This document shows, piece by piece, positions 587-4,899 of a DNA stretch of 64,000 nt. Location: assembly GCA_000496135.1 (NCBI GenBank), contig KI542675.1:1-64000 (forward strand), written 5' to 3'. A program made the translations under genes and the position numbers. Under the pieces are notes generated by a model. It worked only from the letters and a program-made list of their open reading frames with translations. It was not told where the DNA came from and did no database searches. The stretch is from Thermoplasmatales archaeon E-plasma (GTDB lineage: Archaea > Thermoplasmatota > Thermoplasmata > Thermoplasmatales > Thermoplasmataceae). The stretch's first letter is position 1, and each line of letters begins with the position of its first letter.

Positions 587-1003
587 TTTTGTCCCAAAAC
601 CGTTTTTGAATATAGGTTTGTTCACAGATAGTGATGTGTTAAGGATTGTAACTACAGGATTGCTGAAGGGCCAGTAAACTGATGTCAATGTAGTCATACA
701 AAATGTACTACTTTCCATGCATCCTCGCGTGCTATTAACTTCACAAATGTTGGACAAATTTACATAATGATAATATGGATCCGCTACCATTGCGTATCCT
801 ACATTTATATTATTTCCCAGAAATGAAGCATTGTGAAGAGCAAATATCTCAAATGTACCAGGCGTCACATAAAAATTGGTATAATAACCTGATTCAAAGG
901 TTAATCCCTTTGGTTTAGTTGAATTTTCATAGTATGCAAAGGATACAAGCACCATAATTGAAATTACAATGATTGCACCTATTTTTTTGAATTTACTCCT
1001 CAT
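566..1003 (-). pseudogene. Truncated copy of the secreted protein at 1152-1856
   Basis: Starting at the ATG at 1003, the first 35 residues (MRSKFKKIGAIIVISIMVLV and onward) parallel the N-terminus of the neighbouring gene at 1856, including the basic start and single hydrophobic segment. From residue position about 79 to 135 the two are identical at DNA level. After KPIFKNG the copy switches to unrelated residues (FGTKLFMGLP) and stops, so about 90 C-terminal residues present in the paralogue are missing. The junction is at position 599, next to the small gene and transposase. The product may still be made and exported, but it looks like a remnant. Confidence 0.6.
599..769. repeat. 171-bp direct repeat, copy 1
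   Basis: Bases 599-769 are identical to 1449-1619 (offset 850). The repeat lies in the coding part of the truncated gene. Sequence on the right side of the repeat is clearly related but diverged, and sequence on the left is unrelated. This points to recent recombination or gene conversion within an older duplication. Confidence 0.9.
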
Positions 1004-1858: not shown

Positions 1859-4557
1859 TTATCCTTCCAATGGAATATATAGCTGTAATGATACTGCAAC
1901 AGTATAGGATGCACCGTTGTAAACAAAATGTCCAGAGAACCACGAGGTGGAATGCCATGTTGCATTGACATAATCGTTTTGATTAAGATGGAATCCGCAA
2001 ATATAGTGAGTAATTGGTACTATGGTCATACTAACTGAATAGGTATAGTAATTAAGGATATATCGAGAGCTGTGGATAGTTAAAGAGTTCTTCGGTTGTT
2101 GATATAGTATCATGTTAAGATATTGCATATATGAAGGATTGCCATTACCATTATTGACGATTTGGTATACTTCCCTCCCTACTGGTTGACTAAAAGGTCC
2201 AGTCCTATATCCTACAACTTTAAAGTATGGGGATGGAAGATTGCTTCCCCTTTTACCTAAATCCCAGCTTCCATAAGATATCGAGTTTACCATCCCAAAC
2301 TTCGAGTTCCAATAGGATTGCTTATTACTTGGTGCAGACCCTGGAAATACAAACGGACCTAAGGCTACCATTGCTAAACCCACTGCCATAAGGCATGGAT
2401 CTGCTGTGAGCAACAATACATTATCAGTAAGATCATAAAGTGAGTGTTCCGCCTCTATTGTAGTTTGGTTAGTTGCTGTATCACTAGATGAAGTTCCCTG
2501 ATTTAAAGCACATTCAGGTTCATAAATTGGGTAACCCGATGCTGATCCAATCTGAGGTCCTGTAAAGTTCAGATATTGATTATAGTTCAAAACGCCGTAC
2601 TTGTATTGATTTAAACTGACGTTGTTATCTGGAGAATAAAATACAGTTGTTAGACCAAATGGAATATTTCTATCATAATAGCATTTATGACCGCTTGGAC
2701 CATTACTTGCAGTTATTACAAGATTTCCTATGTAAATTCCACTGGAAGAGTATATGGAAGTAGATGCAACACTGTCTCCAAAACATGGCCCGTAAGCATT
2801 ATTGACGAGTCGTGAATAAACATCAAACGGATGCTTGTAATATTCACTCGCAGAACCAGCATTATTTATCATTTTAACCATGAATCCACCATATGCTCCA
2901 GGCTGCGTCTGCCAAGAAACATGTGCGATTCCATTCCCGAATAAATTGGAATTTGCATATATTAGTTTCCCTATATCACCGCTTGGCGTGAGCGTGTATA
3001 CAAACATACCGTATGAATAACAAGTTGGCAAATTGTGTACCATATTTGCGTCGAAATATGGAATATTAAATGCAATATTCGATAATTCTCCTGGAAGCAT
3101 TACATAATTAGTTGATACCCCACCTGGTGATGTCGAGTTATACGCCTTGTTTATGGCTTGAGTTAGATTGTAAGAATTCAGTGTACCTTTCATGTTGTAA
3201 CATCCGTAATTGTAAGTTGGACAGAAATTCCCTATCATTTCCGTATATGTAACAGATACCGTCGTCGAACCTCCATTAATATTTGCAGTTCCTGAGGAAG
3301 GAGATAGCCCATATCCTGATATTGATCCTATGGAGTATGAATACGATCCATCAGGTTCTGGAAATGATATGGATGATGATGTTGTTGAAATGGTATTTCC
3401 ATTGAGATCAATTGTCCATGAGGTTCCTGAAGATAATCCTGATTCTGTGAATGTAAGTGTATATGACTGGGTTGCATATGCAATGGATATTGATCTTGAA
3501 CCACCGCTTACATAAACATAACCGCTTGATGGTGAATCGGTATATCCACTCACAGATCCGATAGTGTATGAATATGATCCGTCGTATTCACTGAATGTTA
3601 TGGTATTTGATGTTGAATATTGTGTATTTCCATTCAATGTTACATGCCATGATATTCCTGAGGATAATCCTGATTCTGTGAATATTACACTGTATCTCTG
3701 TGGTGCTGGAGTTGGTCCGGGAGAAGGACCTGGTCCGATTCTTGGCCCTGGCCACCCGATTATTCTGTATGGACTGTAATATATCATCGGATCGATTGTG
3801 TATGACTGGTTATGATTGATTATACCTGTTTCAAATGGTAATATGATCTGATCACCTGATTGACTTTCACTTACAATTCCTGAATGGAATATGGAATCTT
3901 CAGACTGCCAGTTGACTGATATATTACCAACAGAAACATTCCAGTCGTTTGAGGGAATGATTCCGGTACCTGATGATATATTCTGGCATGAGGGGTTGAA
4001 ACCGTTCACTGCCATTGTGCTGTTTATACCCATTCCAAGTGAGAATGTGGATATATATGTGTTTGTTACATTGAGATTCTTCACAACAATGGATGCATCT
4101 ATTCCACTGTTCGTAAATGAAAATATCTCCGCTATCTTCACATAGTGGTTCCATTTGATCATAACCGCTGAATTCTGCCATACCGATTCAATCCTTTTTG
4201 TTGTATAATGGGAGAATGTCTCTTCTATTAATGGTGCAGATGTATTGGTATTATTTGTGGATACTGCAAAGGGATTTACCTGTGGTCCGGGAGAATAGTT
4301 GGGATTTGCCTCAAACACATTCCATGAAACCGGAAACAGATTTCCGTCAAAACCTATGAATGTATCTGATCCCACAAACCTCACCATTTCGTTGTAATAT
4401 GAATATGATTCCACTGGTGTGGATGCATATTCATTCTGAATATGCTGAATGATGGGAATAGCCATCATTGCTGTAATTGCAATGATTGCAAGGAATTTGA
4501 TTGCTCTGTATCTTTCCTCTCTCTCTCTCTTCCGATTTCATTTGCTGTTGAGTACAT
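1859..4557 (-). CDS. Large surface protein with thermopsin-type repeats; start out of frame at a GA repeat
   Basis: The long open frame (4468 to 1859, 869 residues) encodes an N-terminal beta-rich domain, a Pro/Gly linker (GPRIGPGPSPGPTPAP), two tandem repeats of 77 residues (each with FTESGLSSG-SW and DGSYSY, 231-bp period) and a C-terminal region of about 450 residues rich in Asn, Ser, Tyr and Gly. Such SGL repeats occur in thermopsin-like and other cell-surface proteins of Thermoplasmatales. The frame upstream of 4468 encodes a signal-like segment (RYRAIKFLAIIAITAMM) but has no start codon before a TGA. An ATG at 4557 opens MYSTANEIGRERE in another frame; the two join if the (AG)7 tract at 4517-4530 had 6 or 9 units. 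The gene as sequenced is therefore OFF, or it carries an error. Probable TATA box at about 4617-4626. Confidence 0.7.
3241..3693 (-). repeat. Two in-gene 231-bp repeats (77-residue SGL domains)
   Basis: Within the large surface gene the segment encoding FTESGLSSG recurs 231 bp later: the bases gattctgtga (plus strand) occur at 3441 and at 3672. Each unit encodes a beta-sandwich-like domain with conserved SW, DGSYSY and SPSSG positions. Tandem units of this kind can be gained or lost by recombination. Confidence 0.75.
4517..4530 (-). repeat. (AG)7 dinucleotide tract in a surface-gene start region
   Basis: Seven CT units on the plus strand (AG on the coding strand) lie 27 bp inside the reading frame that starts at ATG 4557. 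With seven units the frame ends early at a TGA. With six or nine units it continues into the 869-residue surface protein and supplies its signal segment. Slipped-strand mispairing at such tracts is the standard mechanism of phase variation in bacteria. Confidence 0.7.
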
Positions 4558-4899
4558 TATTGAATCAGCCCTGAAAAAGACGATTACTAATAAATGTTCG
4601 CTTTCGAATCAGTGGTTTATATATTCAGGCTCTAAATGCACATGGAGTTTTTAACCGTTCTATATTTCAGAATCAGATATCTATTGACACAATTTAACTA
4701 CTATATGAGATATATACCGATTGTCAGTTAAGAGAAACTACTTAGATTTATTGCATAAAAAACAAATCCTTGAGTCCGCAATTCCTTTCATATAGAATAA
4801 TCCTCTGCACGTGGATGACGCCTTCTTATGGCATTCTATCAAAATGCAATATTCGTATAACCCTATCCTATCATGAATTCAAAATATTTTGGTTTATTT
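4558..4899. other. Intergenic region, 342 bp
   Basis: It holds the leader and probable TATA box (about 4617-4626, read leftward) of the surface gene. The rest, 4640-4899, is the far side of the convergent-free gap after the helicase stop. I see no conserved reading frame, RNA gene or clear repeat. Confidence 0.4.

Follow-up and report, generated by a model that had tools for sequence, protein, structure and literature searches.

The (AG)7 tract at the 5' end of a large surface-protein gene of Thermoplasmatales archaeon E-plasma is very probably a repeat-based on/off switch in this acid-loving archaeon, and relatives very probably carry the same kind of switch on sets of surface genes. We are highly confident that the tract is a simple-sequence contingency locus, although switching itself, its reversibility and its control over expression are inferred. 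The gene lies in the window (the whole stretch of DNA that was analysed, 64,000 nucleotides), on a 911-kb contig of a 1.66 Mb genome in 8 contigs.

The start codon and the signal segment lie in different frames

On the minus strand, the ATG at 4557 is followed by eight codons including ...ATC GGA, by (AG)7 and then by GAAAGATAC... (Table 1). The segment behind the tract is a basic-then-hydrophobic stretch, which runs on into an intact 869-codon ORF that ends at 1859. The Met codon of this ORF at 4468 lies 89 nt from the ATG, so that the two are 2 nt out of frame, and the ATG frame meets a stop after 30 codons. Followed upstream, the frame of the ORF meets a TGA four codons ahead of the tract, and no ATG, GTG or TTG is found in it between this TGA and 4468. 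The two frames join only if the tract length is a multiple of 6 nt (6, 9, ... units); with 6 units the predicted N-terminus reads MYSTANEIGREREERYRAIKFLAIIAITAMMAIPIIQ. The initial annotation had claimed that the ORF lacks an upstream start and that the frame opened at 4557 runs into the tract and leaves it out of frame, and both statements were confirmed. Its arithmetic, by which 6 or 9 units restore a continuous frame, is also correct, and its claim that the sequenced state is OFF is correct for the consensus sequence. The tract is a pure short tandem repeat in the 5' coding region with a unit that is not a multiple of three, which meets one criterion for a contingency locus of this type.

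Table 1. Features of the switch region and its gene (positions in the window)
Feature	Position	Strand	Remark
TATA-like box TTTATTA	4588..4594	-	31-37 nt 5' of start codon
ATG start codon, switchable reading frame	4555..4557	-	conserved start region
30-codon OFF-state peptide MYSTANEIGRERERKDTEQSNSLQSLQLQQ-stop	4465..4557	-	
(AG)7 dinucleotide tract, switch	4517..4530	-	sole indel vs 97% identical own-genome copy (5 units)
Signal/anchor segment ERYRAIKFLAIIAITAMMAIPIIQ	4445..4516	-	presently out of frame with ATG
869-codon surface-protein ORF (stop included)	1859..4468	-	two beta-rich repeats, residues ~256-410

A TTTAT(T)A-like element is present at a similar distance from the start in most homologues, and from the position of this box we infer that the transcript leader of the window gene is short or absent. 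The start region (MYST-, MYSV- or MNN-) is conserved among homologues and is in frame with the protein in the ON members; in the homologues G015, G031 and G030:C148 the signal/anchor segment is in frame with the start. One could imagine constitutive production of the protein from a start codon within the 869-codon ORF, either ATG 4468 or an ATC or ATT as non-standard start, which would make the tract irrelevant. ATG 4468 does open a frame, and the product of an ATC start would retain the hydrophobic stretch. However, initiation at 4468 would leave little of the hydrophobic segment, the tract lies downstream of both the start region and the conserved TATA-like box, and the ON homologues read straight through. 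We therefore consider an internal start very unlikely.

Searches of Pfam, PDB and Rfam gave no match for the window gene or region. The AlphaFold model of the protein has a mean pLDDT of 49.7 and is locally confident only in the two repeats (256-410). Downstream of the switch gene, a near-identical direct duplication of ~170 bp (window 600-780 and 1449-1620) is common to two small ORFs for predicted exported proteins (566-1081 and 1152-1958, both minus strand).

Long AG tracts are rare in the genome

The tract is not a product of chance. The window contains (AG)7 a single time, 100 dinucleotide shuffles never produced it, and a first-order Markov model predicts 0.24 tracts of at least 6 units and 0.016 tracts of at least 7 units per genome. 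Genome-wide counts were made by pattern searches. These found three AG tracts of at least 6 units in the own genome, namely the window tract, a tract of ~11 units and one at C3:567269 in EF-1alpha that codes for the conserved KEERERG stretch. Only the first two reach at least 7 units, and the ~11-unit tract occupies the same place, between start and hydrophobic segment, in a paralogue that is 40% identical to the window protein. An (AG)5 screen returned homologues of the window gene but otherwise mostly runs that arise by chance within ordinary genes, so the signal fades into the background at about 5 units.

At the DNA level, a further paralogue (C3:843368, minus strand) is ~97% identical to the window gene between the promoter and about codon 250, beyond which the two diverge; this paralogue has 5 AG units and is likewise out of frame. 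Aligned along window 1859-4600 and G000:C3:840186-843430, the two genes form a mosaic with much lower and uneven identity past codon ~250, a pattern that, as far as an alignment can tell, is as expected from recombination or gene conversion of the 5' cassette. The own genome also holds a 5' fragment (C3:174297) with 5 units followed by unrelated sequence. This stranded cassette (G000:C3:174240-174420, L044) consists of promoter, start, (AG)5, signal and ~20 further codons. The four tract loci of this gene family in the own genome are at C3:4517, 174238, 334449 and 843417. All three intact tract-bearing copies of the own genome are OFF, with both possible OFF frames represented. Of 12 other surface proteins with repeats that were examined in the own genome, 8 lack an AG tract and possess a normal in-frame start and signal, and 4 show no obvious N-terminus, for other reasons.

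Tract length and reading frame vary among homologues

We searched 117 genomes of the order for N-terminal homologues and read the 5' ends of these genes. For 28 homologues from the same family we determined how long the longest AG run is and in which frame the hydrophobic core stands relative to the start codon. We assigned start codons by the constant distance to the TATA-like box (TTTATTA), a choice that might bias the ON/OFF calls in more distant homologues. Some of the 28 are closely related and the counts are thus not fully independent; the public relatives of the gene are mostly MAGs, several of them of low coverage.

All 9 homologues with AG runs of up to 7 nt are in frame (ON). With runs of at least 8 nt, 5 of 19 are ON and 14 are OFF, the frames being distributed 5/7/7 (in frame, shifted by 1, shifted by 2). 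ON state and run length are associated (Fisher 6e-4, 28 homologues), and the ON fraction among the long runs is compatible with one third (p = 0.63). A 5/7/7 spread is expected if 2-nt units are gained and lost without bias. Repeat number shifts the gene in and out of frame, as a contingency locus demands, and a gene is ON only if the distance from ATG to core is a multiple of three. Near-identical or homologous copies carry 4, 5, 7, 7.5, 9.5, 10.5 or 11.5 units and cover all three frames; both ON and OFF states occur, and the ORFs are intact. Slippage would be slow in those OFF tracts that measure only 8-10 nt.

The distribution of frames speaks to two other readings. Repeats are generally slippery for polymerases and ribosomes, and programmed ribosomal frameshifting or transcriptional slippage on the AG tract might thus yield the full protein from an out-of-frame gene. 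Such a programme needs a fixed offset, whereas the required shift is 0, 1 or 2 in near-equal numbers and differs between near-identical copies, which renders this reading highly unlikely. The tract could also merely code for a favoured Arg-Glu linker, given that it specifies alternating Arg and Glu in all three frames. We attach almost no weight to this idea: ON homologues such as G015 and G014 have no Arg-Glu, most long tracts are out of frame, and a pure AGA GAG run is improbable by codon choice alone (P(AGA given Arg) = 0.50, P(GAG given Glu) = 0.25).

Close copies differ in the tract and OFF genes are maintained

A contingency tract should change faster than its flanks, and pairwise 5' alignments meet this criterion: copies that are 85-99% identical usually show no indel outside the tract. 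The window gene and the own copy 843368 are 97.1% identical over 0.8 kb with a sole indel of 4 nt in the tract, and G030:C148 (19 nt, ON) and G009:C39 (15 nt, OFF) are 99.0% identical over ~0.4 kb, again with a sole indel of 4 nt. The own copy 334520 and its orthologue G032:C24 (91.8% over 2.6 kb) differ by a single in-gene indel of 2 nt, located in the tract, and occupy two different OFF frames. Tract differences of 4 nt and 10 nt separate G050:C48 from C41 and G010:C33 from C71, respectively. Sequencing or assembly error comes to mind with low-coverage MAGs among the relatives. The tracts of 8-23 nt, however, are well within a read, the pattern recurs in independent genomes and is confined to tracts of at least 8 nt, and errors would not restrict long tracts to the 5' ends of exported-protein genes; error as the explanation is scarcely credible.

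G009:C39 (L246) and G030:C148 (L247) carry the same 5' cassette in MAGs assigned to two genera. Their gene neighbourhoods differ, which suggests that the cassette moved or was exchanged recently; mis-binning of one short contig is a possible alternative.

OFF genes might also be plain pseudogenes, that is, frameshifted genes heading for loss. The 5' fragment at 174297, which continues into unrelated sequence, and the OFF state of all three intact tract-bearing own copies are in line with this. Against it, the OFF ORFs (866-1061 codons) show no other damage, every frame break in the aligned 5' regions falls at the tract, and all copies with runs of up to 7 nt are ON. The OFF/OFF pair formed by 334520 and G032:C24 has 866 codons without a stop or a coding indel outside the tract and shows a dS of 0.23 and a dN/dS of 0.21, in agreement with the intact ORF that a contingency locus should retain; dN/dS in other pairs ranges from 0.12 to 0.41. 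Pseudogene formation is thus a very unlikely account. Maintenance of the OFF genes would fit part-time expression, which is inferred here from substitution patterns, rather than decay. Programmed frameshifting, selection for an Arg-Glu linker, assembly error and simple pseudogene decay were all considered and rejected.

The initial annotation had suggested counting repeat length in raw reads and in related strains and had named a fixed seven units, with decay of the gene in all relatives, as a refuting case. This case did not appear: lengths vary across copies in all three frames, both ON and OFF, and the ORFs are intact. Its proposal of a contingency locus is supported by these observations; switching itself and its effect on expression remain inferred.

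AG tracts precede the signal segments of further predicted surface proteins in the family

In 77 genomes of the family we found 20 AG tracts of at least 6 units, distributed over 9 genomes. In the majority (16/20), the tract follows a start codon and precedes the hydrophobic N-terminal segment of a protein predicted to be exported or anchored; one of these 16 tracts (G050:C25) is nearly a duplicate and lies where its contig ends. Nine of the 16 belong to homologues of the window gene. The other placed tracts belong to other proteins (G010:C190, two at G010:C212, G016:C82, G032:C52 and G050:C15/C25), and a Pfam scan of five unrelated tract-bearing proteins gave no match. The remaining 4 of the 20 comprise two in EF-1alpha, one inside an ORF and one intergenic tract. 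As a control, (AC)6 was searched in the same 77 genomes and yielded one tract.

Outside the family, 20 tracts from a sample of 400 genomes across the class were examined, and not one lies between start and hydrophobic segment; these were located inside coiled-coil or other ORFs or between genes. The difference (16/20 versus 0/20) is significant (Fisher 1.5e-7). The pattern used for the class was one base longer, and with this longer pattern the family part is 10/11.

The phenomenon is wider than first noted and represents a multi-gene, multi-genus system. We think it probable, with considerable room for doubt, that several genera of one Thermoplasmata family share a multi-locus contingency system, in which AG switches precede the signal or anchor of paralogous and unrelated surface proteins and an N-terminal cassette (promoter, tract, signal and first ~250 codons) recombines between loci and lineages. 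If true, this would be a full bacterial-style surface-variation system in archaea without an S-layer.

In another Thermoplasmata family, a 37-nt AG run (L182, G313:C73:35670-35706) divides a restriction gene in two. Upstream of the run there are matches to Mrr_cat_2 and to the start of ResIII (profile 2-51); the downstream part, in another frame, matches ResIII from position 56. Judged by these profile matches, the locus is a candidate for a phase-variable restriction system in a second archaeal lineage.

A model for switching by slippage

Slippage as the cause, its reversibility, its control over expression and any benefit are inferences. Slipped-strand mispairing during replication would add or remove AG units, and slippage at the tract would be the natural cause of the 2-nt steps; archaeal replicative polymerases slip in vitro (PMC4134008). 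With a 2-nt unit, one state in three would join the ATG to the signal segment so that the protein is made and exported, and in the other two states translation would stop after ~15-60 codons. The sequenced genome is in an OFF state at the window gene as at the two other intact tract-bearing paralogues. In the ON state, a variable Arg-Glu stretch is predicted on the cytoplasmic side of the signal segment, a place that should tolerate changes in length; since Arg-Glu is missing in some homologues, the peptide itself is not needed. With the same AG device on several surface-protein genes in related genera, populations could become mixed in surface type, which may allow escape from viruses or from other surface interactions.

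MutS-domain and NucS genes were not found in the own genome, and positive controls were detected. MutS-domain genes are present in 28 of the 77 family genomes, often as two adjacent matches in ORFs of ~500 codons, and are missing from many genomes without long tracts. Their loss is thus permissive at most, and we rejected loss of mismatch repair as a specific cause.

Comparison with known systems

According to cryo-EM, two members of the order lack an S-layer and are covered by a protein coat that is unordered and whose composition is unknown (PMC12448462), which makes the tract-bearing proteins candidates for a variable coat. If our reading is right, repeat-based surface bet-hedging evolved in free-living archaea. 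There is no host immune system for them to evade, and viruses or microbial neighbours would then be the selecting force. The genes, frames and tract lengths listed here make the idea directly testable in reads.

The strategy is well known from disease-causing bacteria and hardly reported in archaea. A 2025 review describes phase variation as belonging to bacteria and defers archaeal loci to future studies (PMC11868660). Our literature search, limited to open-access sources, found no report on Thermoplasmatales or Thermoplasmata together with phase variation; this does not prove absence. The statistics in the accessible portion of a homopolymer survey that includes 18 archaeal genomes suggest that 5' tracts in prokaryotes, archaea included, favour inactivation by frameshift. 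That survey differs from our case in covering mononucleotide tracts only and, in the same portion, identifies no archaeal contingency gene family.

In the haloarchaeal virus phiCh1, phase variation is brought about by recombination and not by repeat slippage. What varies are surface-adhesion proteins, by the title of the work (cited in PMC8371274). The likeness lies in phase variation of surface adhesion in an archaeal setting, but phiCh1 is a virus. The opa genes of Neisseria carry (CTCTT)n in the region coding for the signal peptide. They resemble the archaeal genes as a paralogous surface-gene family with independent switching by a repeat near or in the signal peptide and with recombination between copies. 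Unlike the AG tracts, the opa repeat is a pentanucleotide inside the hydrophobic core, and the products are bacterial outer-membrane proteins.

The closest mechanistic likeness is to Helicobacter pylori oipA, a gene whose frame depends on a CT dinucleotide repeat in its 5' region (PMC10564699). In both systems a surface-protein gene carries a dinucleotide repeat within its 5' coding part, and the number of units determines the frame; the shared mechanism would be slipped-strand mispairing, with switching demonstrated in H. pylori and inferred in the archaeal genes. H. pylori hopZ, sabA and others carry the same type of CT repeat as oipA. The differences are that H. pylori is a bacterium and a host-associated pathogen, that the coding strand reads CT instead of AG, and that the proteins are unrelated; in Pfam and PDB, no match supported homology of the window protein to the oipA-type outer-membrane family. 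The window gene works like oipA without being a member of its protein family, and our best reading is multi-locus slipped-strand phase variation of archaeal surface proteins, mechanistically like that of oipA.
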